IMG/VR virus record: IMGVR_UViG_3300048672_001038
Location: 1 to 48,057 of that record
Source of the DNA: a virus
Strand: one strand, 5' to 3'
Length of the DNA: 48,057 bases
Shown here one piece after another: positions 2,727-33,446 of this stretch. Numbering within the stretch: the first letter of the stretch is position 1; each line of letters starts with the position of its first letter. The translations under genes were made by a program, and so were the position numbers. Below the pieces are notes generated by a model. It saw nothing but the letters and a program-made list of their open reading frames with translations, did no database searches and had not been told where the DNA came from.

Positions 2727-2749
2727 TGATTACAAGAAAGATATAGCAC

Positions 2750-5311
2750 ATGAAAACCAATTTTAGACAGGGTTTGCTAAGTTACCAAATTGACATTACT
2801 GGTTCGCCGCAATTCCTATTGCCATCGACCATTAATAACTATGTCAAACTTAACATCGCTCCCACGCCGACAGTCGCCACGTTTGCCCATTACACTACCA
2901 ACTATCTTGTTCAATTTGACCAAGGTTCAGATACTTATTGGGGGCCGTTAGTAGCCGGCGTTGATAATTTTCTGTTTTGGGATATTGACACGGTGACAGC
3001 CAGAATTACGACTGGTATCACAACTCTCCAACCCGTTTATCAAGAAACGGAACCTACTAAAGTAAGTGGCCTACATTGGTTTGATAAAACCAATGCAGTT
3101 ATGAAGGTTTGTCGGGGAAGTATTTGGATTCCTGTTATCAGGCTGTTTGCGGGCAAAGTAGCTAACGGAAACGTCAACCAAATTGAGCCATATGGCCGGG
3201 TATCTCAAGCGGGCATTACGGGTTCATTTAACGCAGGTTCCATCATTCTTGACCGGACGGGCGAACCACTCCGAAAAGCCAATTCAGAATTTTTCACCGA
3301 CCATGAAGATAAGTATCTGAAAGTTAATGGGGATAATTCGGGCGTGCTCATTTATCCGACTAACAACGCGACACCTATTCGAGCGGCAGAAAACATTCCT
3401 GCTCGGTCAACTGTTTATATTGATTCTACTGGCATGGCTCGACTTGCCAGTTCAGACCCGGTTCTTATCGGCCAAAAAACGCCGGTTGGCATCATCATGC
3501 AAGCATTGTATGCGGGTGAAATTGGTAATCTAATTCGGGCAGGTAAAATTTCAGACCAACAGTGGGATTTCTCGGGGTCGATTGGTAAGACGTTATACAT
3601 TGATAATTTTGGCGCATTGACAACCATTCGGCCGCAAGGTCTGATGGCATATTCAGTGGGTGTTATTTCTGATGTCAATACCATCATGTTCAATGTCGAT
3701 GCAGAAACTCAACCGCAAATTTATACGGCGAGTGATACAGCATTTATCGTCAATGGACAACCACCCGTAGTTACGACCAATTCTATCAATCAGTTGGGTG
3801 AACGAGTAACGACCGTTTCTATGCCGATGGCAACTAATCTCATTGATGGCTACATGAGCCATAACTATGTCTCTGAAATTTCATCGTTAGGAACTAGAGT
3901 TGGCACCCTGGAAACCAATGCCGGAAATCTTCCTATCAATGACGTTATCGTGGCAGTTGGCAATGCTATCAATTTGGGCAATACGAATAACAACTCATCG
4001 AATGTCACGGCCGTTCTCGGTGTTGATACTCAGTTACAAATTCCGTACATTGCGCTAATTAGCTCAACTGGTACTGGTGGCGCAACTAATTTATCTAACA
4101 CCGTTTCGTCTACCAGTGTCACCATTAATTCGAGTTCAGGAACAGGAACTTCTATTCCGTTAGCTACCTCGTCATTGGCTGGTTTATTAGCACCTGCTGA
4201 AAAAGTGAAGATTGGAAATGCATTAACCGGTTTCAACCTTACATCACAAGTAGTTGGCTCTGGCATTCAAATTATCGCGTCAGACTCCGTTAATCTGAAT
4301 ACATCAACTACTATTCCGTTTGTGTCGTCAACTGTCAATGGAATTCTGGATTTCACCAATTTCAATCATTTTACGGCGCTCTACACTGATTATATCAATC
4401 ATGGCGGCAGTAATGGAGCATTCACCCATTCGACAAATTTAACTACATCCATTACCAATTCAAACATCACGGTTCTATCGGATAATGGTACGGATGCGAT
4501 TTTACCGTTAGTTACTGGTTCCTTATCTGGTCTGATGGGGCCGGATATGTTTAACAAACTATCGGGTATTGCGGCAAATGCGACGAGTTATTCTGATGCG
4601 ATGGCAAAAGCAGCGACTGCCGCAGCTCTGGCTGCTGGTACTCATACCAATGTGACCGTCACCTATGATTCTAACGCCCAATCCATTTCATTAGCAGCGA
4701 CTGCATCCGGTGGTGCGACCAATCTATCAAAGACGGTTTCCGCCACGGATATCCTAGTAATTTCTGATACGGGTACTGATGTTTCATTACCACTGGCGAC
4801 AACTTCGTTAGCTGGCTTAATGGGGCCGGATATGGTAACTGCCCTTAATACCGTGGTTGCCAATCAAGCAACTCCGTTAATGAACATTTCCAGACTGACT
4901 GGCAACCTCAATTTTCCGCTGGTGTGGGCAAATATCACGTCGCAGATTGTGCCAAGTAACGACCCTAGCTATCCGACTTACACTGGACAGCAAAATGGTA
5001 AAGACACTATTTTCTTGGTTGGTAATGTTGATAACACCCCCGTCACTATTTTCTTAGGAGATGTGGCATGGGTGGCAGCTAATGGCGGTGTGATGCCTGA
5101 TATTGGCACTGTTTATACTTTCAGTCAAGATACTGATTCTTCCATCACATTTGTAGCTGCTGCCGGAACGATTCTCAAATCACCCGTTACGCCAGTCATT
5201 GGGCGTAAATACGGGAAAGTGACACTTATTCGGACTGGCACCAATAAGGATGGTGGCGGAACCATCATCGGCCCGGTTTGGGAACTGGAAGGCAATCTTC
5301 TAGCTGCCTAA
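2750..5311 (+). CDS. large tail fibre protein with internal repeats
   Basis: 853 residues, Ser/Thr/Asn-rich and beta-predicted. An early motif LHWFDKTNAVMKVCRGSIW (about residue 105) resembles modules in the neck protein at 11118-13001. The second half carries three related units of about 45 residues, each ending IPLATSSLAGLLAP, LPLVTGSLSGLMGP or LPLATTSLAGLMGP, after an ATNLS-type start. Such tandem units are common in phage fibre shafts. The C-terminal part (TFVAAAGTILKSP, then a Gly-rich end) is a plausible tip. A promoter box lies upstream and a strong bidirectional terminator follows. Confidence 0.75.
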   Translation: MKTNFRQGLLSYQIDITGSPQFLLPSTINNYVKLNIAPTPTVATFAHYTTNYLVQFDQGSDTYWGPLVAGVDNFLFWDIDTVTARITTGITTLQPVYQETEPTKVSGLHWFDKTNAVMKVCRGSIWIPVIRLFAGKVANGNVNQIEPYGRVSQAGITGSFNAGSIILDRTGEPLRKANSEFFTDHEDKYLKVNGDNSGVLIYPTNNATPIRAAENIPARSTVYIDSTGMARLASSDPVLIGQKTPVGIIMQALYAGEIGNLIRAGKISDQQWDFSGSIGKTLYIDNFGALTTIRPQGLMAYSVGVISDVNTIMFNVDAETQPQIYTASDTAFIVNGQPPVVTTNSINQLGERVTTVSMPMATNLIDGYMSHNYVSEISSLGTRVGTLETNAGNLPINDVIVAVGNAINLGNTNNNSSNVTAVLGVDTQLQIPYIALISSTGTGGATNLSNTVSSTSVTINSSSGTGTSIPLATSSLAGLLAPAEKVKIGNALTGFNLTSQVVGSGIQIIASDSVNLNTSTTIPFVSSTVNGILDFTNFNHFTALYTDYINHGGSNGAFTHSTNLTTSITNSNITVLSDNGTDAILPLVTGSLSGLMGPDMFNKLSGIAANATSYSDAMAKAATAAALAAGTHTNVTVTYDSNAQSISLAATASGGATNLSKTVSATDILVISDTGTDVSLPLATTSLAGLMGPDMVTALNTVVANQATPLMNISRLTGNLNFPLVWANITSQIVPSNDPSYPTYTGQQNGKDTIFLVGNVDNTPVTIFLGDVAWVAANGGVMPDIGTVYTFSQDTDSSITFVAAAGTILKSPVTPVIGRKYGKVTLIRTGTNKDGGGTIIGPVWELEGNLLAA

Positions 5312-5318
5312 AGAAAAA

Positions 5319-5342
5319 GCCCTCCAATTGGAGGGCTTTTTT
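5319..5342. terminator. bidirectional intrinsic terminator
   Basis: Perfect 7-bp stem GCCCTCC / GGAGGGC with loop AATT, T6 on the plus side and an A-run on the other. It separates the convergent fibre gene (+) and sheath gene (-). Confidence 0.9.
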
Positions 5343-5355
5343 CATGCTTGATTAA

Positions 5356-7194
5356 TTACTTAATCGAACCACCCGGCGCGACGAATCGCAGCGGGATGTA
5401 AATGAATTCAGCAGCATACATCGGAATGACGCCGACATCCAGCCACAGTTCGTTATTAGCAATACGTTGCGGAGTGTTGTTAGAAGCATCACACCGAGTT
5501 GCGTATTCAGAAATACCACGCTTCGTCATAACGTCGTTCAGCACCCGGTCGGCAGCGCCGCGCAGATTGTCACGAGTTACTTGGTCATTTGGCTCAAACA
5601 GGAATGGCTTGCCACCCTTGCGCAGCGTCCGACGCAGATACATTGCCAGCCGAGAAACGTTAATGCGATTCTTCGAACTAGCAGCCATCAGTGAAGTCTT
5701 CTGACCCCAAATGAACAGACCTTCACCTGGGAAATAAACGATAGGGTTGATGTTCTTTTCATACAGCGCATCACGATATCCCTCATTCAGTGCCAGTTCC
5801 TTGTAAGTGGTCGCAGTGCCGAGCGTGCCCGAAACATAACCAACAGACGAAACACCTGATACTGCACCACGACTCACACCGGCCGGAGCAATCCACGGAT
5901 AAGCTTGCGTGTCAGAATAAACGATAGAGCGAATGGCAATACCAGACGGGGCAACTACCACATCAGTTCCGTCCACATTTGAAGCAAGACCCCACGGGTA
6001 GTAATAAGCAACATCCGGGCCATTGACACGAGCTGATGTCGCAGCCCATTGTGCAGCTTGTCCAGCGTTCAGTTTAACCGGCGCGTCAGCAATCACGAGA
6101 GCTTCTTCACGAATGGCGATAGAAAGCGCAACCATTTCATCCGCGCATTCATGATATCCAGGGCAAGAAATGATGTCGAATTCGATGGATTGACCACGAA
6201 CAGTTTCATTACTGTTAATTTCTGCTTGCAGTGCAGTCACGATGGCAACCCGTTTGGCAGCGTCATTAACACCCAGCGGGGCAGAAATAGTTACGGAAGT
6301 GGCCGTGACAGTGAACGTATCACCCGCAACAAACGCAGTAGCTCCTGCAAGAATTTGGAAAGACAGCTTGGACGTTTGATAAGTAGAACCAACCACACCG
6401 GCAGCTAATGCGCCAGAAATTGAGCCAACCACTGAATAAGCAGTTGCAGAAGTCATTGTTACGGTATAAACTTCAGCAACAGGTGCAGTACCTACCGCAA
6501 GATTAACCATCGTACCGTTTCCGGTGTTAGCACCAGCCACGCCGACATAAGCCAGTTGGAACGTCCATTCATCACCAGCGACGAACGCGGTAGAACCAGC
6601 CGTAACACTCAGCGACAGTTTGGTCGAAGTGAACGGAGTACCAACAACACCCGCGCCAATGTATCCAGACACTGACCCGATAATTGAATACGAAGTGGAA
6701 GAAGTGAAAGTAACCGTCACAGTTTGTGGCTTGACGGAACTTGAACCAGCAGTAATGCCGGTTAGTGTACCGTTTCCAAGTCCATTAAATGAAACAGTGC
6801 TTTGAACAACAGCCGGTACGCCAAACGAGATAAAAGTCTCATCAGTGTCTGTTAGGTCAATGTTTGCACGAACGACATACGCCCGATTACCAACACCCAG
6901 ATATTGATTCAGAGCAAACAGACCATATTCATTACGTGAATCACCGTGTAGTTGATTACCATTAACATCGGTGCGGAATACAGGCACGCCGTACAGTTCA
7001 AGACTTTCTTTCAGTGAAGTGACAGTACGCACCACTGAAAATTCATTCGTGCCAGCAGCCGGCGTGATACCATCTGATTGTTTCTTGCCAGCTTGCGTTG
7101 CAACGAAAAAGAGGGGGACAGTTGCACCACCGGACGCGACAATAAATGAAGAATCGGTGAATGGAACTTGTACGCCCGGAGAAATCATAGCCAT
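5356..7194 (-). CDS. 18: tail sheath protein, T4 gp18-like
   Basis: 612 residues. It forms the contractile outer tube of the tail. It starts MAMISPGVQVPFTDSS, a typical sheath N-terminus. The C-terminal third has conserved sheath features: EGLFIWGQKT, RINVSRLAMYLRRTL, LFEPND and a final FIYIPLRFVAPGGS. T4 gp18 is 659 residues. Residues about 140-305 carry two tandem copies of a domain of roughly 70 residues (VTxTSxTxYS-GSxSG-VVG...LSxxxxAGxTAFVAGD), probably surface-exposed. It lies downstream of gp13-gp14-gp15, as in T4. A TAAATAA box and a GGAT-type ribosome site precede it. Confidence 0.95.
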   Translation of the reverse strand: MAMISPGVQVPFTDSSFIVASGGATVPLFFVATQAGKKQSDGITPAAGTNEFSVVRTVTSLKESLELYGVPVFRTDVNGNQLHGDSRNEYGLFALNQYLGVGNRAYVVRANIDLTDTDETFISFGVPAVVQSTVSFNGLGNGTLTGITAGSSSVKPQTVTVTFTSSTSYSIIGSVSGYIGAGVVGTPFTSTKLSLSVTAGSTAFVAGDEWTFQLAYVGVAGANTGNGTMVNLAVGTAPVAEVYTVTMTSATAYSVVGSISGALAAGVVGSTYQTSKLSFQILAGATAFVAGDTFTVTATSVTISAPLGVNDAAKRVAIVTALQAEINSNETVRGQSIEFDIISCPGYHECADEMVALSIAIREEALVIADAPVKLNAGQAAQWAATSARVNGPDVAYYYPWGLASNVDGTDVVVAPSGIAIRSIVYSDTQAYPWIAPAGVSRGAVSGVSSVGYVSGTLGTATTYKELALNEGYRDALYEKNINPIVYFPGEGLFIWGQKTSLMAASSKNRINVSRLAMYLRRTLRKGGKPFLFEPNDQVTRDNLRGAADRVLNDVMTKRGISEYATRCDASNNTPQRIANNELWLDVGVIPMYAAEFIYIPLRFVAPGGSIK

Positions 7195-8522: not shown

Positions 8523-9308
8523 TTAGATTGGTTTAGCGGGAGTTACGGGTAATCCTTGATTATTAGGTTCCGTTAACGTAACTTGTGCGATAGGTGTACC
8601 GAACGGCAGTAAATTACCATTTTCGTCCACTTCGTTAATGGTCATCGTGCTCATGTCACCAATTTGGATGACAACTTTTTTAACTACTTCATCCCGAATA
8701 CCCATAGGAATACTTAGGAAGATAGGCATTTCAAATCCTAACGTCCATTGCATAATTCGCCTATCCTGCCCAGACGGATAGTTTTCTTCATTCGTGATTT
8801 CCGTCATTTTCACAGTCGTAATTTTCGTCCAGTCGAATTCAGCATCACTGGTCTGAATCTGCAAATCTGGATTGAACAGCACTAAAATCTGTTCTAGGAT
8901 TTGATGTAATTGATTGGTATTACTGGCGTTGATGGTCAATTCAATCTGCATCAGAAATGGATTTGGCATCGCCCGCTGAACGACATACAAATCGTCCGGG
9001 AACGCGCCGCCAGTTTTCATGGCGACACGATGGTCAACATATCCGTAAGCTTTCCGGCGAGAATCGTCCATTGACAAGCCCCGCATATGGACGGAGAGGG
9101 CTGGTAATGAATAAGGTAAGTTTTGCGTATGACCGGCTAAGATGGCCGCGACCACCCGCTCTTTATTGCCAATCAGGCACGGCACTTCTAAAAACTCAGT
9201 GTTGCCACATCCATCCAGCCCTGTTTGAACTTTCAGCCCGGAAAAGATGGCGCAAAATTGAAGCATGTATTTGCGCAGTTGCTCATTATAGAAATAGTAG
9301 TTAATCAT
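8523..9308 (-). CDS. 15: tail completion / sheath terminator protein, T4 gp15-like
   Basis: 261 residues, close to T4 gp15 (272). gp15 caps the tail tube and sheath and joins the tail to the head. The start YYFYNEQLRKYM matches the gp15 pattern of an aromatic YFYN followed by a basic helix. Other matching features are NPFLMQIELTI, HQILEQILVLFNPDL and RRIMQWTLGFEM, corresponding to the T4 segments ending QIVEQILPYFQP and RRRIEWSLTFEV. The start overlaps the gp14-like stop (ATGA), and the gene order gp13-gp14-gp15 is that of T4. Confidence 0.9.
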   Translation of the reverse strand: MINYYFYNEQLRKYMLQFCAIFSGLKVQTGLDGCGNTEFLEVPCLIGNKERVVAAILAGHTQNLPYSLPALSVHMRGLSMDDSRRKAYGYVDHRVAMKTGGAFPDDLYVVQRAMPNPFLMQIELTINASNTNQLHQILEQILVLFNPDLQIQTSDAEFDWTKITTVKMTEITNEENYPSGQDRRIMQWTLGFEMPIFLSIPMGIRDEVVKKVVIQIGDMSTMTINEVDENGNLLPFGTPIAQVTLTEPNNQGLPVTPAKPI

Positions 9309-11107
9309 AATTTACTCGATAAAGGGACGTTAGATGAACCAAGGATAGTTTTTTGACTCGGTTTGAAGCTAGACCTATTTTGCCGCTGGTCTGTTTCAAC
9401 CCATTTCCATTTCATCACGGATGCGTCAAACTGATATAGCTTCGCAGGAATCTTCAATGCCGGGTCATAAATCAGTCTGAAGAATGTTCGGTCAGCAATG
9501 GAGATAGCTGGAGTTGGCAGCTTAAATCCTTCTTCATACGTTTGTCCATCAGCCGGAATGGCGTCTGCGACATACATTTGATTGCCATCATAACTACCCG
9601 GACTCCTAAATCTATTCGTACCAGATGCCAATTCAAGTCCATCCGTTCCTTTTTTCGGCACAGCATCAATCGCTTCCTGAGTATTTATCTCAGTAGAAGT
9701 GATAGGTTGAGTTTGCAACGATTGCATTCCATTTGCAAAATCAAGGTCATTGATGGAAAATCTGTTATTCAACGTGCCGAACAAATCTCTAGTCTCTTGT
9801 GATGCAATGGCAGGTTGACCTTGAAACTTGAAAATAATGGGTCGCCAAGATGTTGTATAACCATCAGCCGCCCAATTTGTGTCAGTTACTTCGATGAATT
9901 TTCTGACCGGCATTAAATTAGTGTCGTATTGCCGTTCAGAAGGAATTTCGAGAATGTCTCCAATCACTAACGGTCTGCCGAGTGCCTGCACCATTTGTGC
10001 AAATACAGCCGTGAACACATACGTTTCACCAATGTCAAATCCAAATTTACCAAGATTGGAAATGGCTTCAATGGGTGTATAAGCCACTTTCAAATCAATG
10101 GACGTGGTGGCATACTCTCTATCTCGATTTTCCATGAATAGATGGTCTTGAATGGTATCTAATCGAGTGGACGTTAAATTGAAAAACTCAACCTTTTCAA
10201 CTTCCCATGCACCTGTTCCTACAAACATGGTCGGAACAATTCGCCAATATCTCGCACCGGCTGATTGCTTGAACGAAACCAATTGGGGAGCGGCGTTATC
10301 TAACAAATTAACGACATCAACTCGATGCCATTTCATCGAAATCGGCACGGTGAACATATCATTAATAACAAACGGAATTGAGCCAGCCGCCAGATTGAAT
10401 GAGCAAATCAACGAGTTGAACCGTTGCCCAACTGTTGCAACACCTAACAAAGTATTGTTACCTGTGTAAAATACTGAGAACGTGGTCGCAGATAATGCGG
10501 TCAGCATCAATGCGCCGGTATTACAATGAGTGCCCGCTGTAAAATTGCTAAACAGTCCATTACCAGTTCCAGCATATTGAATGGTAGTCGGATCGACGTA
10601 AAACTCTCCGTTAGAAGAATCAATTCTAACTTGAAGTGCTCTCGCCCCGGCAGTCGGTTGAGTGATTCTGAAACTTGAAATGACTTGCAGATTGGGTAAT
10701 TCTGGCAAGTAGGCGGGTGTCACTTGCAATTGAGAATTCACATAGGTTTTAGACCGAACACCGAAATCGTAGCCAAGCCACGCAGGAGCCTGCGTAACAG
10801 CCGTTCCGACCTGTGGTGATACCCAGGTAGGTGCGAGGGCGTCAAACGCGAATGCAGAGCCGTTTAGCGGCCTTCCTGAGCCTGTCACATCAAGCATCTT
10901 CCCTTGCTCGTGCACGCCGAGCAATTTGAAAATGTTGATAGTGGCCCCAGACCGATTCATCGCTTCCGCCGCGATGGATTCTTGGTAGGTGTCTTGGCAA
11001 TCAGAAACAGAAAATTCACCAACACACAAATCAGGTACGGCATATTTCTCTAACTGATTTTGCAATTGGCTCGTATCATTAACCGAGCCGGCAGGAGTAC
11101 AACTCAT
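9305..11107 (-). CDS. 14: neck protein, T4 gp14-like, with inserted domain
   Basis: 600 residues, more than twice T4 gp14 (256). The N-terminus (QESIAAEAMNRSGATINIFKL) and the segment around residues 370-430 (FGFDIGETYVFTA...LVIGDILEIPSERQYDTNLMPVRKFIEVTD) match gp14, which has a similar 'write-in' of a membrane-side entry ([20 protein letters not shown]). The protein joins head and tail. Residues about 180-260 carry a copy of the beta domain duplicated in the sheath (SATTFSVFYTG...FNLAAGSIPFVINDMFTV). Another stretch with GARALQVRIDS looks like a carbohydrate-binding type beta sandwich. Position between gp13 and gp15 supports the call. Confidence 0.8.
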   Translation of the reverse strand: MSCTPAGSVNDTSQLQNQLEKYAVPDLCVGEFSVSDCQDTYQESIAAEAMNRSGATINIFKLLGVHEQGKMLDVTGSGRPLNGSAFAFDALAPTWVSPQVGTAVTQAPAWLGYDFGVRSKTYVNSQLQVTPAYLPELPNLQVISSFRITQPTAGARALQVRIDSSNGEFYVDPTTIQYAGTGNGLFSNFTAGTHCNTGALMLTALSATTFSVFYTGNNTLLGVATVGQRFNSLICSFNLAAGSIPFVINDMFTVPISMKWHRVDVVNLLDNAAPQLVSFKQSAGARYWRIVPTMFVGTGAWEVEKVEFFNLTSTRLDTIQDHLFMENRDREYATTSIDLKVAYTPIEAISNLGKFGFDIGETYVFTAVFAQMVQALGRPLVIGDILEIPSERQYDTNLMPVRKFIEVTDTNWAADGYTTSWRPIIFKFQGQPAIASQETRDLFGTLNNRFSINDLDFANGMQSLQTQPITSTEINTQEAIDAVPKKGTDGLELASGTNRFRSPGSYDGNQMYVADAIPADGQTYEEGFKLPTPAISIADRTFFRLIYDPALKIPAKLYQFDASVMKWKWVETDQRQNRSSFKPSQKTILGSSNVPLSSKL

Positions 11108-11117
11108 TTTATTTCCT

Positions 11118-13001
11118 TTACATTAGGAACATAGACACGTTACCCATTTCAGCCAACCCGCCAAATTCATAGTTGAGTAACGCTTCTTTCAGCGCGGTGA
11201 AATCGGCTTCTGATTCAGTAATTAATTCAGACCCATTCAGAGAAATGCTGCCATTCGGGCCGGGAGTGCCAGAAGTAAACTTGCCCCGAATCTGACCAAG
11301 ATAATTCTTGCATTCGGCTAACGCCCAATTCTGAAAGAATTGCTTTGCCCATCGGTCAGATAACAATTCTTGCTCAGTTCGTTCCAGAATAACTTCCATG
11401 ACCACTTTTTCATTCTGAGCAATTCGGCGCAGAATGTGTAACTCACGGCGAGCTTCATTCCAAGTAAACATCAAATCACCGGCCAAGAGTCTGTTAAATT
11501 CTTCTGACAGATTGTAAGTTAAATGGAGGGAGAGTAAGTCAATTGTCGCCCCGTTGAAATACTGATTGATGAATGTCTGAAAGTACAGATTGGAGTCCCA
11601 ATTCATTGAATTGGAACCAAGGATGTTTAGTCGAGAAATACTTGTCACTGACACAACTTTATCCGTCTTGTCCACCGGGCTATTCAAATAATAAAGTTGC
11701 TGGTCTTTCAAGAGCGGGTAAATGAAATATCTTTTTTCATAGGCAGCGCCACATAATTGTCGGTAAGTATCTAACGCATTGTCGATAGCGACGTTAAACT
11801 GTTCCTCAGACAATTCAACGCAAGCACCCGGCCAGCCTAACTGCGCCTTCAAAATTTTAATCAATCGGGTTCGTTCAGCATAAGACCCATCATTACCAAT
11901 ACCGATTTTGTCAGTAGTTGGTGAACCAGCTCCCTCGGTATTAACTTTTGTCCATGCTCCACGCATGAATACATTCAACGCTTTTGTCTTAGTGTTGTAG
12001 AATAACAATCCGTTGTAAGGAGTAATTAACTGACTATACTCAAAAGTGAATGGAACAGAGAACGCCGGCAGATATCCAGCCGTCCCAAAAAACAAAGTAT
12101 TGGTTTGATTCGGAACCGACCATTCCATTCCGTTAAAGAACGTTAGTCGCCGCGTAGTAAAATCGAAAAAGAAATCACCAGTGACGGGAGCGGCAGGAAC
12201 AGCAACACCCGATTGCATTGATGCGAAGGGAACAAACGCATTGGCGCTATCTCTAATTTGGAAATTAGTAGTATTGGCAATTCCCCACACCCGACCATCA
12301 AATACATATAGATTGGATGTACCAGCTTGCAAATAGGTTTGGCCCATCGTGCCAGGATTAACGTCCCCTGACATGATGGCATCACCTCTCGTCTGAATCC
12401 ATGATTGCGAAGACGCATCAAAGAACATGATGAGATTAAGTTGCGTGTCAAAATAGACGAAACCGTCAGTCGGATTGGTTGGTGGACTAGGTAACGAAGG
12501 GATGTTACCCGTATAAGCAGAAACGCCCTTTTCTAATTGAGCTGAGGATTCTAGCGGATATGACTGAATACCAATTGGGTAATACTGCAAAATTGACGTG
12601 CAAGGATGAATCGACGCATAGTAAATGGTCGATGGGTCAGTATTGGTGATATCAATCGAAAACGTTTGGGCAGTTTTATTCGCCGATACAGTCGTTACCG
12701 GAAATGGATGTTGAAAGAAATCTGAATAGAATGCGACAACTTGCGCTTGGTCGATGATGGAAGCTGAGGGTGAGTTATATGCAGTATCGGCCGTGTATTG
12801 AGTTCCATCATCAGGATAATTGACCGGGCCAATGGCTTTAGTGGAAAGCAGAATGACTGCCCCATCAACAAACTCTAACGGATGTGGCATTTCCACCGTG
12901 ATTTTGAGAGTAGTGTTTGCCGTTCGGTCAAGTGTTAATTGAAACTTTCTTGATTCAATCCATAAATCATGTGTGGTACGTTCGTTGATCGTATTCGCCA
13001 T
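11118..13001 (-). CDS. 13: neck protein, T4 gp13-like, with long N-terminal extension
   Basis: 627 residues, twice T4 gp13 (309). Residues about 375-627 match gp13: LGWPGACVELSEEQFNVAID, RWAKQFFQNWALAECKNYLGQIRGKF and a C-terminal SLNGSELITESEADFTALKE, like the T4 segment [20 protein letters not shown]. gp13 joins the portal to the tail. The first 370 residues are extra and contain at least three short modules (GFVYFDTQLNLIMFF-SW, GDFFFDFTTRRLTFFNGMEW, GLLFYNTKTKALNVFMRGAW). These look like surface beta modules of fibres. A TAAATAC box lies 22 bp upstream. Confidence 0.85.
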   Translation of the reverse strand: MANTINERTTHDLWIESRKFQLTLDRTANTTLKITVEMPHPLEFVDGAVILLSTKAIGPVNYPDDGTQYTADTAYNSPSASIIDQAQVVAFYSDFFQHPFPVTTVSANKTAQTFSIDITNTDPSTIYYASIHPCTSILQYYPIGIQSYPLESSAQLEKGVSAYTGNIPSLPSPPTNPTDGFVYFDTQLNLIMFFDASSQSWIQTRGDAIMSGDVNPGTMGQTYLQAGTSNLYVFDGRVWGIANTTNFQIRDSANAFVPFASMQSGVAVPAAPVTGDFFFDFTTRRLTFFNGMEWSVPNQTNTLFFGTAGYLPAFSVPFTFEYSQLITPYNGLLFYNTKTKALNVFMRGAWTKVNTEGAGSPTTDKIGIGNDGSYAERTRLIKILKAQLGWPGACVELSEEQFNVAIDNALDTYRQLCGAAYEKRYFIYPLLKDQQLYYLNSPVDKTDKVVSVTSISRLNILGSNSMNWDSNLYFQTFINQYFNGATIDLLSLHLTYNLSEEFNRLLAGDLMFTWNEARRELHILRRIAQNEKVVMEVILERTEQELLSDRWAKQFFQNWALAECKNYLGQIRGKFTSGTPGPNGSISLNGSELITESEADFTALKEALLNYEFGGLAEMGNVSMFLM

Positions 13002-16564: not shown

Positions 16565-18619
16565 TTACACAATTAAGCCAGGATTGTACGCATTACCAGT
16601 GTCCACTATGACACCTAGCACCGGGTCATACATTCCCTCCCGTAATACCAGGGTATCTTCAAACTTCAAATGCTCTACTGCCAGCCCAGAATCCAACAAA
16701 TATTTCCGGTCTTTTGCATATACTGAAATCGACACTTGCTGCATTTTCTTAATTGATGAAGCGGGTTCACAAACCACAGTGAACAGCATTTCATCATCAA
16801 TCACCCGCGCATCTTTCGCAAAACTGGCAAACTGAATCAACTCGACGTTATCGCCAAGTTTCGCCATCAGCTTATCACCAACATCAACTGAATTCAAATA
16901 ATGATTGAAAAACAGTCGTGTGGCGTTAACATCTGTTAGCTTATGCTTATTCAGAACGGTAATCGTACTGATACTCGCCGCTCTAATTGACGGCGGCAAT
17001 TTGTTATCAATGTGTGGGAAAACAATAACATACCCCATCTTTTGTTTCCCTTCCCGATTGCATCTTCCAGCCGCCTGCACGATGCTATCAAGACCGGCAA
17101 ATTCCTTGAACACAATCGGAAAATCAAAATCAACCCCAGCTTCAACTAACTGCGTTGAAATGACTTTCACAATTTCCCCATTAGCTAGTTTCTCTTTGAT
17201 TTCGGCAATCACCTGCTTTCGATGTTTCGGATGCATATAAGCAGACAAGTAAACAAGCTCCGGACAAACATCTCGCAAATCTTGAAACAGGTCAAGAGCG
17301 TGCTTACGCGTGTTAACAATCGTTAAACTGCTCCCGTGCTGAATAATTTCGGAATGAACATTGAAGTTAGGTTCATACTCAATTTCAACCCGTTTTAGCC
17401 GGCCGTGTAACTCACCCGGATTGGAAATAATTTCTTGCGGACGGACGTTATACTTATACGCGTAGTCAGCTTGAGTGGCAGTAGATAGAACAATTGAACA
17501 ATTGAAATCTTCTACCAAACTTTTCAAAGCATCCATAGTGGGTGTTAGCAAATTTACAGGTAGTAATTGCGATTCGTCCAAAATGATAACGCTATTTTCA
17601 ATCGCTTGTAATTTTCTCAATTTAGAATTTTTACATGCGAATAATGATTCGAGGAATTGAACAACAGTCGTCACAATGATGGGTGAGTCCCACGTCTGAG
17701 CTTGCAATTTGTATTTGTCAATCCCTTCATCATTTGATTCTTTCGGGTCAAAATTAGAGTGGTGCTCAAGCACATTCTCTTTGCCAAAAATGCTCTTATA
17801 AATCTTGGCTGTCTGGTCAATGATGGACGTGTATGGAATGACAACAATCACCCGCTTCTTTTCGTGTGTCCGCGCATGCTTCAACGCAAACCGCATCCCG
17901 GAAAGAGTCTTGCCACCACCAGTCGGAACAGATAAAGAAAACCAGCCAGGAGTCTTTTCAGCAGATGCAATACAATCCTCCAAGATTTCGTTACGGGTAA
18001 AATGAATTTGCTCAGTAGGAACGAATTTGCTCATATGCTTTTCCATCACTGAATCAAGCACTGGAATGGAATCGTAAGAGATTTCAGGTTGGGTTTTGTA
18101 AAAATTGGCCGTGTCCGTCCAGTCAGCATGAACAAGTTTCGACAAAGTAAATCGCATCCGCATAGCGACGTTACCAGACATTTTGAACCCTTTTATCGGA
18201 TACTGTTCAGCAGGAATTTGATGCAAATACGAGACAGATTCTTGATACTCCGTTTTTCTGGCTTGCATCTTATCTTTAATACTGAATCCATCCTGCAACC
18301 CTGTATGATGGCACATGATGGCAATAGATGCTATTTTAGTTTCATACGAATCAAATTGATATCCATTTTTATGGAGCAGCTTCGCCAGATGAATCGCACC
18401 AGCAGCCGAATGAGTTTTAGCCTCTTTTGAAAAAGAGGCTGGATGGTCAGACAGTAAGTATTCCTGAAACCCTGTACGGAATTTGCCCGCATCATGGAAC
18501 AGGCCGAGCAATTTGAAATAGTTACCACCAGCGATTTTGTCCGCAACTCCTTGCAAATGGTCAAGCAAACCATGATAGGTTCTTCCAGAAGGTGTCACGT
18601 AACTATGGGCGTAGTGCAT
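16565..18619 (-). CDS. cas3: CRISPR-associated helicase-nuclease Cas3, type I-C
   Basis: About 684 residues. It is recruited by Cascade to degrade the target DNA. The HD nuclease domain is intact: YAHS at residues 3-6, GLFHDAGKF near 39-47, HSAAGA near 70 and CHHTGL near 103-108. The helicase part has Walker A VPTGGGKT near 231, a DExx-box LDESQ, motif III LSTAT, motif V QLVEAGVDFDFP and motif VI QAAGRCNREGK. ATG 18619 is chosen because Cas3 proteins usually begin just before YAHS; an in-frame TTG at 18679 lies inside the -35 box. No clear Shine-Dalgarno precedes it. It is separated from the other cas genes by the array and has its own promoter. Confidence 0.95.
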   Translation of the reverse strand: MHYAHSYVTPSGRTYHGLLDHLQGVADKIAGGNYFKLLGLFHDAGKFRTGFQEYLLSDHPASFSKEAKTHSAAGAIHLAKLLHKNGYQFDSYETKIASIAIMCHHTGLQDGFSIKDKMQARKTEYQESVSYLHQIPAEQYPIKGFKMSGNVAMRMRFTLSKLVHADWTDTANFYKTQPEISYDSIPVLDSVMEKHMSKFVPTEQIHFTRNEILEDCIASAEKTPGWFSLSVPTGGGKTLSGMRFALKHARTHEKKRVIVVIPYTSIIDQTAKIYKSIFGKENVLEHHSNFDPKESNDEGIDKYKLQAQTWDSPIIVTTVVQFLESLFACKNSKLRKLQAIENSVIILDESQLLPVNLLTPTMDALKSLVEDFNCSIVLSTATQADYAYKYNVRPQEIISNPGELHGRLKRVEIEYEPNFNVHSEIIQHGSSLTIVNTRKHALDLFQDLRDVCPELVYLSAYMHPKHRKQVIAEIKEKLANGEIVKVISTQLVEAGVDFDFPIVFKEFAGLDSIVQAAGRCNREGKQKMGYVIVFPHIDNKLPPSIRAASISTITVLNKHKLTDVNATRLFFNHYLNSVDVGDKLMAKLGDNVELIQFASFAKDARVIDDEMLFTVVCEPASSIKKMQQVSISVYAKDRKYLLDSGLAVEHLKFEDTLVLREGMYDPVLGVIVDTGNAYNPGLIV

Positions 18620-18762: not shown

Positions 18763-20015
18763 TTTTAAAGAATCTACCGGCGTAAGCCGGTAGATTCACC
18801 GAACTCGACATGTGAGATAATCTGCATACCGTGGTTTCAATACACTACCGGCGTAAGCCGGTAGATTCACCAATTTGATTCGTTCGATGATTCTGCGGCG
18901 AATAAACTGTTTCAATACACTACCGGCGTAAGCCGGTAGATTCACTTCTCAGACCCTGCCATCCTGCAGCGGAAAAATAGTTTCAATACACTACCGGCGT
19001 AAGCCGGTAGATTCACCGTCCGCCAAGGGCTTGACCTCGCTCGGCTGCTAGTTTCAATACACTACCGGCTTACGCCGGTAGATTCACTTAGCGAAAGCGA
19101 TAAACGACTTTGCGGAGCTTTGTTTCAATACACTACCGGCTTACGCCGGTAGATTCACGCAATATCCGCTCACTGTTCCGTGCTGGCGCAGGCGGTTTCA
19201 ATACACTACCGGCTTACGCCGGTAGATTCACGCTCTTTGCGCACGATATTGACGACATTTCAATACACTACCGGCTTACGCCGGTAGATTCACTATCACT
19301 GTGAATGAAATGTACGCGCTGATGCCGTGGTTTCAATACACTACCGGCTTACGCCGGTAGATTCACACAATCAAGTTTCTGCCAATGACGGCAGCATGAG
19401 CTGTTTCAATACACTACCGGCTTACGCCGGTAGATTCACATATACAGCCACAGAACTGTATTGATAAACGAATCTGTTTCAATACACTACCGGCTTACGC
19501 CGGTAGATTCACCGCATAGCTCGCACATATCATCGTTGTCAGTTGAGTTTCAATACACTACCGGCTTACGCCGGTAGATTCACGCTTGCGCTGCTCGGTA
19601 AGCATATTGATTTCAGAGTTTCAATACACTACCGGCTTACGCCGGTAGATTCACTCGCTTCGAGTTTTGCTGAGATTTTCTCTGAGCTGTTTCAATACAC
19701 TACCGGCTTACGCCGGTAGATTCACTTCCGCCCACAGCTTTGACCCGGCCGGATGCTCAAGTTTCAATACACTACCGGCTTACGCCGGTAGATTCACCGC
19801 GCGGTCAAGCTGTATATTGCTTTTCGCTCGAAAGAGTTTCAATACACTACCGGCTTACGCCGGTAGATTCACATATGAGCCTGCGAGTAACCCGCCAGGG
19901 ATGTCTAGTTTCAATACACTACCGGCTTACGCCGGTAGATTCACATAATCGGCTTGAGAATCAGGTCGATGCGATGCAGTTTCAATACACTACCGGCTTA
20001 CGCCGGTAGATTCAC
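18763..20015 (-). CRISPR. type I-C CRISPR array, 18 repeats and 17 spacers
   Basis: Repeats are 37 bp. On the minus (transcribed) strand each reads GTGAAT, stem CTACCGGC, loop GTAA, stem GCCGGTAG, then the 11-nt handle TGTATTGAAAC. ATTGAAAC at the 3' end and the 11-nt handle fit type I-C processing by Cas5. Repeat starts on the plus strand: 18763 (degenerate last repeat), 18834, 18909, 18980, 19051, 19122, 19195, 19257, 19330, 19403, 19476, 19547, 19618, 19689, 19761, 19836, 19908 and 19979. Spacers are 34-38 bp except one of 25 bp (19232-19256). The four repeats nearest cas3 have loop TTAC instead of GTAA. Leader side is 20016. Confidence 0.98.
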
Positions 20016-20139
20016 CTTGCTTTCGTAAGGTGTTGATTTTGTTAGGTTTTCTGACACTTTCCGCGAACCTTCGTTTTTACGGTTCACCTTTTGGTCAGCG
20101 AGCCAAAGGTAAAAGCAAAAACCCTTAAAAATCAATCAC
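20016..20139 (-). promoter_or_regulatory. CRISPR leader
   Basis: 124-bp gap between the cas8c stop and the first, perfect repeat. On the transcribed strand it is AT-rich (TGATTTTTAAGGGTTTTTGC) with A-runs near the array, as leaders are. Leader polarity is supported by the degenerate repeat at the opposite end. No confident -35/-10 pair was found, so the array may also be read through from the cas operon. Confidence 0.65.
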
Positions 20140-20553
20140 TTAGACCTCGCGCGAACCTTCGGCAACAGAGTCGCCACTAGGGGTCTGCGCATTCTTTGCT
20201 TTTCGTGCAGCTCGTTCAGTATCAAAGACCGCACGTTGATGAGCGAATCCAAGATGCAGTTGGGTAGCATCCTTTTCCACAGATGCATTAATCAGTGAAG
20301 CGAACAGCGAGTTTCGCAGGCTGAGAAGATTGGTAGTAAATTCCGATTTCCCGTATTGCCGAATAATCAACTTTTCCCAATGCACATATTCGGTAATCCG
20401 GGCAATGTCTTGCGGCTTGGATGTCAGCTTGCGCAGATACTTTTCTACAACCCCTCGTTGAACACCAGTGCTACTGGCACGGGCAGCAATTTGTTGCATT
20501 TGTTCATATACTGCCAGCAGTCGGCCGACGATGAACGAATAGTTGGTAGGCAT
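20140..20553 (-). CDS. cas11c: small subunit Cas11c from an internal start in cas8c
   Basis: Within cas8c, the codon for Met414 (20553) is preceded at 8 nt by GGAG in the context GCAGGAGCAG, a strong ribosome site. Translation from it would give a 137-residue protein starting MPTNYSFIVGRLLAVYEQMQ. Type I-C systems are known to make Cas11 this way. Cas11 lines the Cascade belly and stabilises the non-target strand. The call rests on the site and on family knowledge; expression is not shown. Confidence 0.75.
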   Translation of the reverse strand: MPTNYSFIVGRLLAVYEQMQQIAARASSTGVQRGVVEKYLRKLTSKPQDIARITEYVHWEKLIIRQYGKSEFTTNLLSLRNSLFASLINASVEKDATQLHLGFAHQRAVFDTERAARKAKNAQTPSGDSVAEGSREV

Positions 20554-21792
20554 TTGTTCTGCTCCTGCAAATTTCAAAAAGTTGGTAAGGTTCTTCCGAG
20601 TGAACGGCTGATTTTTGTCTTCGGCCATGATACCAGAAAGACGGTCGATGGCGCAAGCGGAACTTCGATGGAGTGAACCACGGTCAAAGATATGACTAAT
20701 GATTTCTCGTTTCAAAAGCTGCATCATACTGGAATTAGTACCACGTTTCGGGGCAAGTTGTTCAGCGATTTGCTTAACAGTCTGAGAACCCATCGTGTTA
20801 AGCCAATTGTCAACTTTCTTCGCTAGCACGCTCAGTTTCGTTTCAACAAGGTCTGAAATGAACAGGCGAGCGACGTTAGTATGCACGAAAAATACATACA
20901 GGTCAACATCGACTGCACTTTCGTTACTAGTCCAAAGGGCGTTAATTTTCTTCTTGACATTCAGCAATTTAACGACCGGGTTAGTGACATAATCACCGAA
21001 CAGGTCTGCCAGAAAATCATCTTCTTGTTCAGCATTCTTGAAGAAATAAACACAGCCGGAGTTCTCAGTAAACTTGATGAAATAGTTATCCATCAGGTAT
21101 TGGAGAGTTTGTGAATACTTCGTAATGTCTGAGGCAGAAATTCCATCCCGTTGATAGTCTTTCAAGTGCAGGAAAGAATCGAATGCAGGGACGTTATAAG
21201 AAACCAGCACTGCTCCGTTAGCGCCTGATGCCATTTTGCCAGAGGTTTTAATGAACGGATGATTGGTGGCTTGTCCGAACTTGTTCAAAGCGTAATCAAG
21301 CACATCCGCCATTTGACAAATGATGTGTGGGATGTTTTGGTCATCAATGACACGAATGGCACAGAAATTAGATTTCGGCCCCGTACTGGAAAATGCGTGA
21401 TTGGGCAAATCGACCAATTGCTCTAATTGGTCAAGTGGTGCAGATTCTAGAAACGTGATAACGGATTGAACAAACGGATTATGCAGTTGTGCATTCATTT
21501 CGCACAGTTCATCATAAAATGCTTGTTGGCATTTTTCAGCACGTTCAACTTTATCACCAATAGTGTATCCAAAAATGTACACGGGCTTATCCCAACCGAC
21601 GTTGGGTGCGATACCATTCGTTCGTGCCCGAGACACGACAGCCAGTTCAGCATCAGTGGGTAGAACGGCCAGCAGGTTTCCTGACATATCGATATCAACG
21701 AAATACGCCATTTTGACTGGACTGACTCCTGCGCGCACCAGTTTGTCTGCAACTTGCGGGTAAATGTCAAGAAGACGTTCGATGGGATGCAT
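20140..21792 (-). CDS. cas8c: Cascade large subunit Cas8c (Csd1)
   Basis: 550 residues, usual length for type I-C Cas8c. It recognises the PAM and helps unwind target DNA. The N-terminus (MAYFVDIDMSGNLLAVLP, then APNVGWDKPVYIFGY and QQAFYDELCEM) has the Csd1 order: beta strands with a 'DG/SG' turn, a WDKxxYxxGY segment and a helix holding the RHxxF-like region. The C-terminal part (SFIVGRLLAVYEQMQ) corresponds to the Cas11-like helical bundle. It starts 12 bp after cas5 and is followed by the leader. The ribosome site is AAAGG. Confidence 0.92.
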   Translation of the reverse strand: MHPIERLLDIYPQVADKLVRAGVSPVKMAYFVDIDMSGNLLAVLPTDAELAVVSRARTNGIAPNVGWDKPVYIFGYTIGDKVERAEKCQQAFYDELCEMNAQLHNPFVQSVITFLESAPLDQLEQLVDLPNHAFSSTGPKSNFCAIRVIDDQNIPHIICQMADVLDYALNKFGQATNHPFIKTSGKMASGANGAVLVSYNVPAFDSFLHLKDYQRDGISASDITKYSQTLQYLMDNYFIKFTENSGCVYFFKNAEQEDDFLADLFGDYVTNPVVKLLNVKKKINALWTSNESAVDVDLYVFFVHTNVARLFISDLVETKLSVLAKKVDNWLNTMGSQTVKQIAEQLAPKRGTNSSMMQLLKREIISHIFDRGSLHRSSACAIDRLSGIMAEDKNQPFTRKNLTNFLKFAGAEQMPTNYSFIVGRLLAVYEQMQQIAARASSTGVQRGVVEKYLRKLTSKPQDIARITEYVHWEKLIIRQYGKSEFTTNLLSLRNSLFASLINASVEKDATQLHLGFAHQRAVFDTERAARKAKNAQTPSGDSVAEGSREV

Positions 21793-21804
21793 GATAAACC
21801 TTTG

Positions 21805-22407
21805 TTAAAATTTGATAACGCCGTTTTGAACTTTCACCCGAGTCCAAGAAATTTCAGCCTGTTTCAGTTTATTGTATTTTGTTGGATGAATGATGTCATG
21901 CAGCATTGTACCGTAATCACTAGAATGGTCAATCGGTTTTTTGTCGTCAAAGTCTTCGAGGACGAAACCGACAAATTCGCGCATACCGAGGAATGCCTGT
22001 TTGTAATGCTTCCCTGCTGCGAGACGGTCACGAAAAATGGCCGCATGCTTACCAGGGGTGTTAGCCCCTTCGCGGTCACATCCTTCGTCTTGTATAGTGA
22101 AAAACACTCGATAGTCAACATTTTCAAGAAACGAAATGTTGTACTGATGGCGATGCTTTGCGTTGAGTTGTGGGTTTGTCACCTCACGAGGACTAAATTT
22201 CAGTCCATTCAGTTTGATATATCCACGCCGTATGGGGTTAAGAATTTGAATCTCACGAATGATGACTCGCATTTCCGGCTTTGAATAAACACTTCCAATG
22301 ATTTGCCGAAGGGCAGAACCAGTCGGGACATCATAAGACATGCGTTCACCATTCAGGTGAGGATTAGTAAAACAGGCACGATCACCAATGATGCGACAAG
22401 ACAGCAT
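21805..22407 (-). CDS. cas5c: Cas5c (Cas5d), crRNA-processing subunit
   Basis: 200 residues. In type I-C this subunit cuts the precursor RNA and binds the 5' handle. It shows NPHLNGERMSYDVPTGSALR at the N-terminus, IQILNPIRRGYI near residue 54 and the C-terminal signature GKHAAIFRDR with AFLGMREF. Lys120-His121 lie in the position of the catalytic Lys-His of Bacillus halodurans Cas5d; Tyr41 is a candidate for the active tyrosine. It is slightly short but complete. AAGGAA precedes the ATG. It follows cas7 after a 58-bp gap with a hairpin. Confidence 0.93.
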   Translation of the reverse strand: MLSCRIIGDRACFTNPHLNGERMSYDVPTGSALRQIIGSVYSKPEMRVIIREIQILNPIRRGYIKLNGLKFSPREVTNPQLNAKHRHQYNISFLENVDYRVFFTIQDEGCDREGANTPGKHAAIFRDRLAAGKHYKQAFLGMREFVGFVLEDFDDKKPIDHSSDYGTMLHDIIHPTKYNKLKQAEISWTRVKVQNGVIKF

Positions 22408-22465: not shown

Positions 22466-23335
22466 TTATACCACTCGGGTAATCTTGACGCCAGCAGAAA
22501 GTTCAACGGATTCTCCGACTTCAAGGTCTGCGCCACCGTTAACGGTAATCGTGTAATCTTCAAAGCAGGTCGGTTCAGCCGATGCCTTGATGTCAACACT
22601 ACGGGTAGTGCGATACGAATTCATCTTACCGAGCACCGAATCATGGTCAATACGGTACAGGCGCTCGACATAGCAATCAGCACGACCCGCCGATTTGGAC
22701 AGCTCAAACATATTGGCAAAGGCTTCTTCAAAGACGGTCATGTCTTCAGCGGTCACGCGAGAATTGCGCGCGTAAATCGGGTTGAAGAAAGCATGCTGCA
22801 CATAAACGGCATGGTTGACAATCCATTTGTTACCCATCGTCTGCGTTTGTTCTTCCTTGCGACCGAATGAGCTGGTAATGGAAACGATTTCAGGATTGAT
22901 GGGGAGTACCGACTTGGCAAAACCGAATTGAATCGGGCCGGAAACTTGGGCGTTATCATCGCCGCTAGATTCTTCTTCAACCTCGTCATCGGTTTCTGCA
23001 GCCTTCTTACTGGCCTTCTTACCCTTCTTGTCTGCCTTCTTCGGCTTGGTGATTACTGCGCCAAACAGGCGCGCATCCCAGAACGAAGCAAGCACTTCCA
23101 CAGGAGTCTTGCCATCGTACAGCGAATGAATATTCACACCACTCTGGCACAGCAGTGGCATTTCATGAACTGCTTGCACGAAATCACGAATCTTGCGCTT
23201 GATGGATACGTCGGTAATAAGTCCGTATCCGTTAGAATCAACGCGAGGTTGATTGCCGTTATCCGGATCGCCGTTCGGGTTGCTATTGATGACGTTGTAG
23301 ACGGCCACGTATTCACGGCGATTGAGAGTAGTCAT
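22466..23335 (-). CDS. cas7c: Cascade backbone subunit Cas7c (Csd2)
   Basis: 289 residues, usual for type I-C Cas7. It polymerises along the crRNA. The N-terminal strand and NPNGDPDNGNQPRVD (residues 19-33) with LITDVSIKRKIRDFV are the family signature. WDARLFGAV, GPIQFGFAKSVLPI, ITSSF and TMGNK follow in the usual order, and FEEAFANMFELSKSAGR matches the C-terminal helix. Residues about 97-129 are an unusual low-complexity insert, first Lys-rich then Asp/Glu-rich, between FGAV and GPIQ. It is first in the cas operon, unlike the standard order. AAGGAA precedes the ATG. Confidence 0.95.
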   Translation of the reverse strand: MTTLNRREYVAVYNVINSNPNGDPDNGNQPRVDSNGYGLITDVSIKRKIRDFVQAVHEMPLLCQSGVNIHSLYDGKTPVEVLASFWDARLFGAVITKPKKADKKGKKASKKAAETDDEVEEESSGDDNAQVSGPIQFGFAKSVLPINPEIVSITSSFGRKEEQTQTMGNKWIVNHAVYVQHAFFNPIYARNSRVTAEDMTVFEEAFANMFELSKSAGRADCYVERLYRIDHDSVLGKMNSYRTTRSVDIKASAEPTCFEDYTITVNGGADLEVGESVELSAGVKITRVV

Positions 23336-23361
23336 TTCAAAGTTCCTTTTCAGTTTTGGGA

Positions 23362-23419
23362 AGTTGCTGCGTGTTTTGCAGTGTTTGTATTATGCGGTAG
23401 TTCGGAAATTAGTGCAAGG
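23362..23419 (-). promoter_or_regulatory. cas operon promoter (58-bp duplicated element)
   Basis: TTGCAC at 23412-23417, 17-bp spacer, CATAAT at 23389-23394 on the minus strand. The 58 bp are identical to 24069-24126 before the neighbouring gene. A short CTGC/GCAG hairpin lies just after the predicted start. The leader to cas7 is about 46 nt. Confidence 0.8.
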
Positions 23420-23430
23420 TCTGTTACACT

Positions 23431-24045
23431 TTACTCGGAAACCGACCATACGGTTTCCCCAGAACCATTGGTGCTCATGCAAATCTTGATGGGCGTCGGT
23501 TCAGGTTCAAGCGCAAAAACGCGAAACTTCAGACCAGGGACGAACTCTTGCATCAGAATGGTTTGAACCATTTCCATCGAATTCGCAAACAGATGTTCCC
23601 ACCCATTGCCAGGGCGCTGGAACATGACGGAAAACGGGCCTTCCGGGGTAAACACCTTGGGGTAATCCTTCTGCTGTTCCTCGGCGTCAGCCTCATATCC
23701 GGTAATAGAAAAACGGTTTTGATTGTCAATGACCACATAAATAGTGAATCCGGGAACCAAACCATTAATTCCAATTTCGCCCTGCAATGGCGAATCAATA
23801 ACAACCGTATCAATTCCAGGAACGGCATGAATCATATCTGCCACTGAATAAAATTCACCCGTGTGATAGGCTTTAACGGTTGTACCAAACCCGGAAAGCG
23901 TAACGGTTGAACTGCCAGGGCCACGAGTTACAAAAATTTCAGCATTACATCGCGCCAGCGCGGCGGCGCGATCCTGTTCAATCAGCCCCACCAGTTCATC
24001 ACTGATGGCAAAATAGAAACCATGGTTCAGTTGTTTGAAAAGCAT
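23431..24045 (-). CDS. hypothetical protein next to cas operon, 204 residues
   Basis: Not recognised. It starts MLFKQLNHGFYFAISDELVG and is beta-rich in the middle (TVTLSGFGTTVKAYHTGEF, VPGFTIYVVIDNQNRFSITGY), with a helical C-terminus. It lies directly upstream of cas7 and has the same promoter sequence as the cas operon. A role with the CRISPR system is possible from position only. The stop lies 14 bp before the cas promoter -35. Confidence 0.6.
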   Translation of the reverse strand: MLFKQLNHGFYFAISDELVGLIEQDRAAALARCNAEIFVTRGPGSSTVTLSGFGTTVKAYHTGEFYSVADMIHAVPGIDTVVIDSPLQGEIGINGLVPGFTIYVVIDNQNRFSITGYEADAEEQQKDYPKVFTPEGPFSVMFQRPGNGWEHLFANSMEMVQTILMQEFVPGLKFRVFALEPEPTPIKICMSTNGSGETVWSVSE

Positions 24046-24068
24046 TTTTCGCCTCTTGAAGTTTGCTG

Positions 24069-24126
24069 AGTTGCTGCGTGTTTTGCAGTGTTTGTATTAT
24101 GCGGTAGTTCGGAAATTAGTGCAAGG
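24069..24126 (-). promoter_or_regulatory. promoter, duplicate of the cas promoter
   Basis: TTGCAC at 24119-24124, 17-bp spacer, CATAAT at 24096-24101. Identical over 58 bp to the cas operon promoter. It drives the gene at 23431-24045. Confidence 0.8.
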
Positions 24127-24146
24127 GTTGTTACGCTTTGTTACTT

Positions 24147-30618: not shown

Positions 30619-31278
30619 TCAACCCTTCTTACTTTTTGTAACGATTTTACCCCAAGCCTCTCGCAATGCTCGTTCAGCAGAAGCATGGTCAATCATGGAG
30701 AAGTCGGCGTTTACACTGAGTTCAAAATCACAATGGTCATTGGTATCATCTTTACAATAGATGGACAACGACTGCCATTCGTAACCATAGGACTCCAGTG
30801 CGCCACCATAATAGAACTCGGCCATACTACCACACTGCGGGCAAATGAATTCAGGTTCCTGCTTGACAGAAACTGCATTACCACGTTTCCATGCATAAAA
30901 CCGGCCGAAAGCGGCGTTATTGTATTCATGGAAAGCACCTGAATCGGCTGTGGTGAATTCCCACTCTGGAGAAAATTCACAATTGATGCCATCTTCAATT
31001 GACCACCGATGCGGATGGGCGTTGTGGTTGATAGCGCCGTTATAGGCATAGGTGGACACCAAGAAGCCCGATTCTTCCGCTTCATAAATCAGGGTGAAAT
31101 CCTTTTCTGCAAATTGCATGCCGGTTTCTTCAAACACTTCCCTGACCAGTGCTTGCAAATTTTCTTCACCATCATCAACCTTCCCTCCCGGAAAACCAAT
31201 GGCAGCACTGTTCCGGCGAGTAGTTGACAAGAATAGGAAATTGTCAGTCGGGATGATGGCACAGACGGCACGTTTCAT
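30619..31278 (-). CDS. Nudix hydrolase with inserted zinc ribbon
   Basis: 219 residues. The Nudix box is perfect: G32-x5-E38-x7-R46-E47-V-F-E50-E51-T-G53, which binds the metal and cleaves X-linked nucleoside diphosphates. The C-terminal half has CPQC (147-150) and two later cysteines (175, 183), a zinc-ribbon pattern seen in some NADH-pyrophosphatase-type enzymes. The substrate could be ADP-ribose, NADH or a damaged nucleotide; the sequence does not decide. It directly precedes the SprT-like gene. AAGGAG is upstream. Confidence 0.85.
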   Translation of the reverse strand: MKRAVCAIIPTDNFLFLSTTRRNSAAIGFPGGKVDDGEENLQALVREVFEETGMQFAEKDFTLIYEAEESGFLVSTYAYNGAINHNAHPHRWSIEDGINCEFSPEWEFTTADSGAFHEYNNAAFGRFYAWKRGNAVSVKQEPEFICPQCGSMAEFYYGGALESYGYEWQSLSIYCKDDTNDHCDFELSVNADFSMIDHASAERALREAWGKIVTKSKKG

Positions 31279-32556: not shown

Positions 32557-33420
32557 TCATTCCTTCCAAACCAAAATTTCACTAATCATATCAGACCGAT
32601 TTTCCTTTTTGGCGGTCATGATATTTCTACGCTGAACCAGTTCATACTTGAACCGATGCTTATCAACTTCGGCCAATACTGCCGGGGTTGCATGATTACT
32701 GTACAGGAAATTTACATCATTACCCTTCTCCAAAATTAACATCTGTTGCGACCAGTCAAAGCCACCTTTGCTGTAATCATTCTCGCCTCCATTCTCATTT
32801 GAATAGGGTGGGTCAAAATAACAAAATCCATTCAGCTCAATCGTATTCCACGACTGGCATAAAAACTTGACTTCATCATAGAATGATAACTCAGTTTGAA
32901 ACTCTTGTAAAGCTTTATTCAATCCCACGATTTCAATCGGTTTGCCATTCCAATTGAAGGGGGTGTTATATTCACCCTTCTTGTTCTCGCGGTAAATTCC
33001 GTTAAACGAATGCTTTTGCAAGAATAGAAAACACGCCGAAGTTTCAGGCGTCATGTCACCTTTCACTTCATTAAACCGATGCTTCACCGAACTGAAATAT
33101 GCATTAGCCTCTTGCAATTCTTCTTTCAACATTCCTTTAACAGAATGATTGAACTCACTTTCTAATTCCAAGTATAGCTCTAGCCAGCCATCATTGCCAA
33201 TGACACTTTTGTAAAAAGACATCACTGGAATTGAAATGTCGTTAAGAACAATTCGCTGGACGTTGGCGCGCATGAGTGTCGGATGCAAACTGGTAAAAGC
33301 ACCTAGAGCACCGGCAAACGGTTCGATATAGGTGTCGTCATGAATCAACTTTGAAACATGATAGGAAAGCTTCTCAGCCAACCAGCGTTTTCCACCGATG
33401 TATTTAAAAAATGGTTGCAT
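32557..33420 (-). CDS. dam: DNA adenine N6-methyltransferase, Dam/D12 class
   Basis: 287 residues. It transfers methyl from S-adenosylmethionine to adenine. FKYIGGKRWL (5-14) and EPFAGALGAF (33-42) bind the cofactor, LNDIS follows near 60, FLQKHSFNGIYR near 133-144 and the catalytic DPPY is at 203-206. The start at 33420 is chosen because AAAGG precedes it and the -10 box lies directly upstream of a longer start at 33441. The target is probably GATC or a related site. Its stop lies 4 bp from the nuclease-like gene start. Confidence 0.92.
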   Translation of the reverse strand: MQPFFKYIGGKRWLAEKLSYHVSKLIHDDTYIEPFAGALGAFTSLHPTLMRANVQRIVLNDISIPVMSFYKSVIGNDGWLELYLELESEFNHSVKGMLKEELQEANAYFSSVKHRFNEVKGDMTPETSACFLFLQKHSFNGIYRENKKGEYNTPFNWNGKPIEIVGLNKALQEFQTELSFYDEVKFLCQSWNTIELNGFCYFDPPYSNENGGENDYSKGGFDWSQQMLILEKGNDVNFLYSNHATPAVLAEVDKHRFKYELVQRRNIMTAKKENRSDMISEILVWKE

Positions 33421-33446
33421 TAAACCTTTCGTTTTTATCATCTTGA

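Follow-up and report, generated by a model that had tools for sequence, protein, structure and literature searches.

A probable fossil inversion of the hairpin core in the repeats of a phage-borne type I-C CRISPR array

Type I-C CRISPR loci without adaptation genes have been described in huge phages, where phage-borne effectors are accompanied by an array and the adaptation module (cas4-cas1-cas2) is not required (Al-Shayeb et al. 2020, PMC7162821). When template switching takes place between the arms of a perfect inverted repeat, the intervening segment is inverted. Such loop inversion with an unchanged stem, mostly involving four-base and partly reverse-complementary loops, has been described in rRNA, including that of bacteria (PNAS 2022, PMC8794818), and loop inversion by template switching has been described in yeast coding inverted repeats (Abraham and Hazkani-Covo 2021, PMC8604942); the cases in these two papers fall in rRNA, microRNA and yeast genes. 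In the literature searched, which omits most subscription papers, loop inversion in CRISPR repeats was not found described, nor was a link between template-switch inversion and CRISPR repeat variation. We rate the array described here as an established type of mutation in a locus of a familiar kind. As in the published inversions, its hairpin arms are perfect and unchanged and the loop is reverse-complemented; unlike them, it concerns a CRISPR repeat, in which copying would have spread the change to a block.

The window is the whole 48,057-nt stretch of the IMG/VR virus record IMGVR_UViG_3300048672_001038. It contains the type I-C genes cas8c, cas5c, cas7c and cas3 together, in the order cas7, cas5c, cas8c, array, cas3, all on the minus strand:

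16565-18619, minus strand: cas3 (PADLOC Cas3c, E = 5e-175); the reading frame is open to a TTG at 18679, and the likely start is the ATG at 18619.
20140-21792, minus strand: cas8c/csd1, divergent, 550 aa (Pfam PF09709, E = 3.7e-35; PADLOC Cas8c).
21805-22407, minus strand: cas5c (TIGR01876, E = 2.2e-34; PDB Cas5c chains, E about 1e-19).
22466-23335, minus strand: cas7c/csd2 (TIGR02589, E = 4e-49; PADLOC).
23345-23432, minus strand: cassette resembling a promoter, upstream of cas7, with a near copy at 24052-24139.

The NCBIfam scores of Cas8c and Cas7c lie below the curated cut-offs, indicating a divergent member of type I-C. The repeat shows the type I-C trait of a hairpin followed by a ATTGAAAC-like 3' end, with an 11-nt handle whose length is inferred from the position of the stem. 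Like the loci of PMC7162821, the window has no Cas1, Cas2 or Cas4 in its record, and Cas5c is, judging from its sequence, the likely pre-crRNA processing endonuclease. In the published I-C variant a helicase replaces Cas3, whereas the Cas3 of the window, as read from the sequence, has HD and helicase domains and retains the HD, Walker A and DESQ motifs. The array is also longer (18 repeats; the median in that study is six) and, unlike those loci, sits between cas8c and cas3.

Identity to the T4-like major capsid protein of the record is 44% in the 385-kb phage XacN1 and about 64% in viral contigs reaching 350 kb. The 48-kb record is a fragment of a jumbo myovirus genome that is probably far larger. 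Neither Cas8c nor Cas1 was found in twenty capsid-related records, and the cas locus therefore looks like an accessory gain; no close relatives of Cas8c were found in phages or plasmids. The promoter-like cassette and its second copy, which lies upstream of a neighbouring phage ORF, form an 88-nt direct repeat with 89% identity, and the cassette motif AAAGNGTAACANNNNTTGC occurs in four mismatch-free copies on the minus strand between 23414 and 25088. This putative promoter suggests that the cas operon may be under phage control. A Nudix-like domain protein and a DNA methyltransferase are also encoded by the phage (window positions 30619-31278 and 32557-33441).

Re-reading of the sequence gave an array of 18 repeats, each of 37 nt, that spans 18763-20015 in a minus-strand locus:

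18763-18799, minus strand: terminal repeat, the oldest and leader-distal; crRNA-strand loop TTAC, stem of 12 bp in place of 8, degenerate outer flank.
18834-19016, minus strand: three other old-form repeats (18834-18870, 18909-18945 and 18980-19016) and the two spacers between them; crRNA-strand loop TTAC.
19051-20015, minus strand: fourteen new-form repeats with intervening spacers; crRNA-strand loop GTAA (plus-strand TTAC).
19257-19293, minus strand: new-form repeat with its final crRNA-strand base changed from C to T, adjoining the 25-nt spacer at 19232-19256.
20016-20139, minus strand: putative leader, 124 nt, in the gap that separates the cas8c stop from the first repeat, assigned from position and polarity.

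The repeat on the crRNA (minus) strand reads GTGAAT-CTACCGGC-loop-GCCGGTAG-TGTATTGAAAC. On the plus strand, the core is CTACCGGC-GTAA-GCCGGTAG in four of the 18 repeats, all on the cas3 side (starting at 18763, 18834, 18909 and 18980), and CTACCGGC-TTAC-GCCGGTAG in the other fourteen, from 19051 to 19979; the crRNA-strand loops are TTAC and GTAA, respectively. These counts and start coordinates are exactly those of an earlier note on this DNA, which had also described the two loops as reverse complements within a perfectly palindromic stem. That description was borne out: the 8-bp arms are perfect and identical in 18 of 18 repeats, and as each of the loops GTAA and TTAC reverse-complements the other exactly, the two forms differ by an exact inversion of the core with the stem unchanged. 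Neither intermediate loop (GTAC or TTAA) occurs among the 18 repeats, and the two forms are unmixed. The earlier note had the whole 20-bp core inverted; since the central TA is self-complementary, only two bases differ between the forms, and the inverted segment could have had any extent from 4 to 20 bp.

Two local irregularities were noted in the array. Spacers are 34-38 nt long except for the single 25-nt spacer, whose place beside the repeat with the altered end base (19232-19293) suggests a small deletion or a mis-sized integration. In the terminal repeat (18763-18799), the stem gains four pairs by a change from TGTA to ATTC, the exact complement of the left flank. This longer stem, in which three substitutions are involved, is suggestive of the kind of extension that template switching produces; a second template-switch event and a terminator-like end are both possible.

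Leader-distal repeats are often degenerate. In the window, the degeneracy of the terminal repeat at 18763 lies on the side that is 3' in the crRNA, and ATTGAAAC is the minus-strand end of the repeat. Together with the gap at cas8c, this places the leader at the cas8c side and makes the four cas3-side repeats the oldest, in agreement with the earlier note. The chance that 4 of 18 repeats cluster at that one end is 1 in 3060. Retention of older variants at the leader-distal end is ordinary, and old loop variants are kept there in other arrays (survey loci L026, array 1, one repeat; L086, four; L088, four). The block pattern needs only the copying of the leader-proximal repeat and no special process. 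The motif CGCGAACCTTCG has just two occurrences in the window, at 20062-20073 in the putative leader and at 20150-20161 in the 3' end of cas8c.

We consider it probable that this array preserves a fossil mutation, in which one hairpin core was inverted and later copied. The ancestral array would have had at least five repeats, all with the crRNA-strand loop TTAC, and the core of the repeat then beside the leader would have been inverted once to give GTAA. The likely route would be a polymerase template switch between the two 8-bp arms, which would leave the arms intact and reverse-complement the loop, or, to the same effect, a hairpin that was extruded and flipped. Each spacer addition, presumably by Cas1-Cas2, would then have copied the leader-proximal repeat, giving the fourteen new-form repeats and leaving the four older ones behind. 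A single flip followed by leader-proximal copying had been proposed from the sequence, and it is still the cheapest explanation, fitting the polarity and the lack of intermediates; substitution is nevertheless a live rival. Against a single inversion also stands the arm length, as the yeast inversions were seen solely where the arms exceeded 9 bp (PMC8604942) and the arm in the window is 8 bp.

The predicted fold is the same 8-bp hairpin for both loop forms, whether the molecule is DNA or RNA (-15.4 and -14.5 kcal/mol in RNA). The newer crRNA-strand loop had been called a stable GNRA tetraloop. A gain in stability is indeed predicted, but it amounts to only 0.9 kcal/mol, and type I-C crRNA processing was found to tolerate loop mutation (PMC3783184). 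A functional role of the GNRA loop was dropped in view of that work; the different loop probably has no effect on how crRNA is processed.

Two ordinary substitutions, at loop positions 1 and 4, may by luck have given the reverse complement and then been copied; we regard this as unlikely, though it is the most serious alternative. Two random substitutions anywhere in the 37-nt repeat yield the exact inversion in 1 of 5994 cases, and in 1 of 54 when confined to the loop, and an intermediate repeat is missing from the array. Given changes at both loop ends, the chance is 1 in 9. A survey of other type I-C loci, taken from IMG/VR, phage records and GTDB genomes with arrays called by script, bears on this alternative from both sides. 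It covered 169 arrays with 5856 repeats, plus 49 arrays from two repeat patterns in viral contigs; these sets partly overlap, and some of the 218 array calls are counted twice. Substitution was the commonest loop change, with 31 single-base variants and several multi-base non-inversions in the 169 arrays. In L088, the loops of a leader-distal block differ from the others at these same positions, 1 and 4 (GCAC versus ACAT), a double change that is non-inverting and has an intermediate. On the other side, a true inversion is present in another I-C array.

Outside the window, exactly one independent exact loop inversion was found in the 218 array calls. It lies in repeat 21 of 31 of the IMG/VR contigs 3300042503_001836 and 3300042503_002860, which are near-identical and come from the same sample. 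The loop TAAT became ATTA there, in four of four bases and with no other change; four random changes in a four-base loop give an exact inversion in 1 of 81 cases. A near-exact case occurs in the end repeat of an Oscillochloris MAG (L103), where TTTCGC became TCGAAA, matching the inverted loop at five of six bases, and the stem is also 2 bp longer. Loop inversion in type I-C arrays is real but rare. Other candidates were rejected as inversions: in L094 the stem is altered too, L099 and L228 look like one-base shifts, and the loops of L260 are substitutions. No excess of flips in viral arrays is claimed, with one case only outside the window. L019 (IMG/VR 3300024054_000362) was excluded from the statistics, its repeats being too variable for safe alignment. 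Its tract at 2700-6100, near a cas7-like gene, is array-like but not a normal CRISPR array; the stem GTCGnGATCG...CGATCnCGAC is kept, and the loops and spacing are highly variable.

The viral I-C locus with the exact inversion (L026/L027) resembles that of the window in having cas3, cas5, cas8, cas7 and arrays, with no cas1 in the record. It differs in its repeat sequence, in its two arrays and in its Cas7, which is only 29% identical, and the flip is confined to a single internal repeat that was not copied onward. In L026 (3300042503_002860, classed as viral), the arrays lie at 1746-3297 and 9060-11269 and are one loop base apart (TGAT versus TAAT); the terminal repeat of one array has the loop of the other.

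That contig, with two arrays sharing the same repeat but for one loop base, gives a precedent for a recombinational fusion of two arrays, one of each type, whose repeats differ in the loop only. Such a fusion is improbable for the window, as the record holds a single array, neither the viral nor the GTDB collections yielded a second array or a variant of the repeat, and the loops of the two types would have to be exact inversions all the same. An assembly chimera, in which two strains with different loops were joined at a repeat, is conceivable for an IMG/VR viral contig that may be metagenomic but is the least probable reading of all, given that ordinary reads cover more than one unit of a 37-nt repeat and a spacer of about 35 nt, that the repeats are otherwise uniform, and that two strains with opposite loops still require a flip.

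If the single inversion struck the leader-proximal repeat, the fourteen new-form repeats imply at least 13 later repeat duplications, in line with the 13 spacer additions that had been calculated. The cas4-cas1-cas2 genes are usual in cellular I-C loci and usually absent from phage loci. The earlier note further held that the array had grown without its own cas1 and cas2, probably by host machinery. No cas1, cas2 or cas4 occurs within the 48-kb record, which is a fragment, and the 13 duplications do not by themselves imply growth in the phage or with host Cas1-Cas2. The array may have grown before its capture by the phage, and adaptation genes may lie elsewhere in the larger phage genome. The comparison with host I-C arrays that had been proposed found no partner, as the repeat occurs in none of the GTDB species genomes sampled and no host array with it was found. 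In IMG/VR, four contigs match the repeat core, and the two inspected have a single terminator-like intergenic hairpin and no array; no relative of the array was found that would display the ancestral loop state. Searches with the spacers gave no targets in plasmids and only one match, at E = 5, in T4-like phages; against the surveyed loci they gave nothing beyond 14-18 nt, with no notable self-target.

More generally, and much more tentatively, CRISPR repeats may be prone to template-switch inversion, possibly while single-stranded during spacer integration. The flips would then be heritable time marks, and a phage array without adaptation genes would have taken at least 13 spacers through host Cas1-Cas2 in trans. 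If flips recur, they would provide a rare landmark for the age and polarity of arrays, and would make it possible to ask if growth continues in the arrays of phages without adaptation genes. The same process would offer a simple account of the perfectly paired stems of CRISPR repeats. The flipped loop is a neat but modest marker of array growth, and it merits a wider survey.
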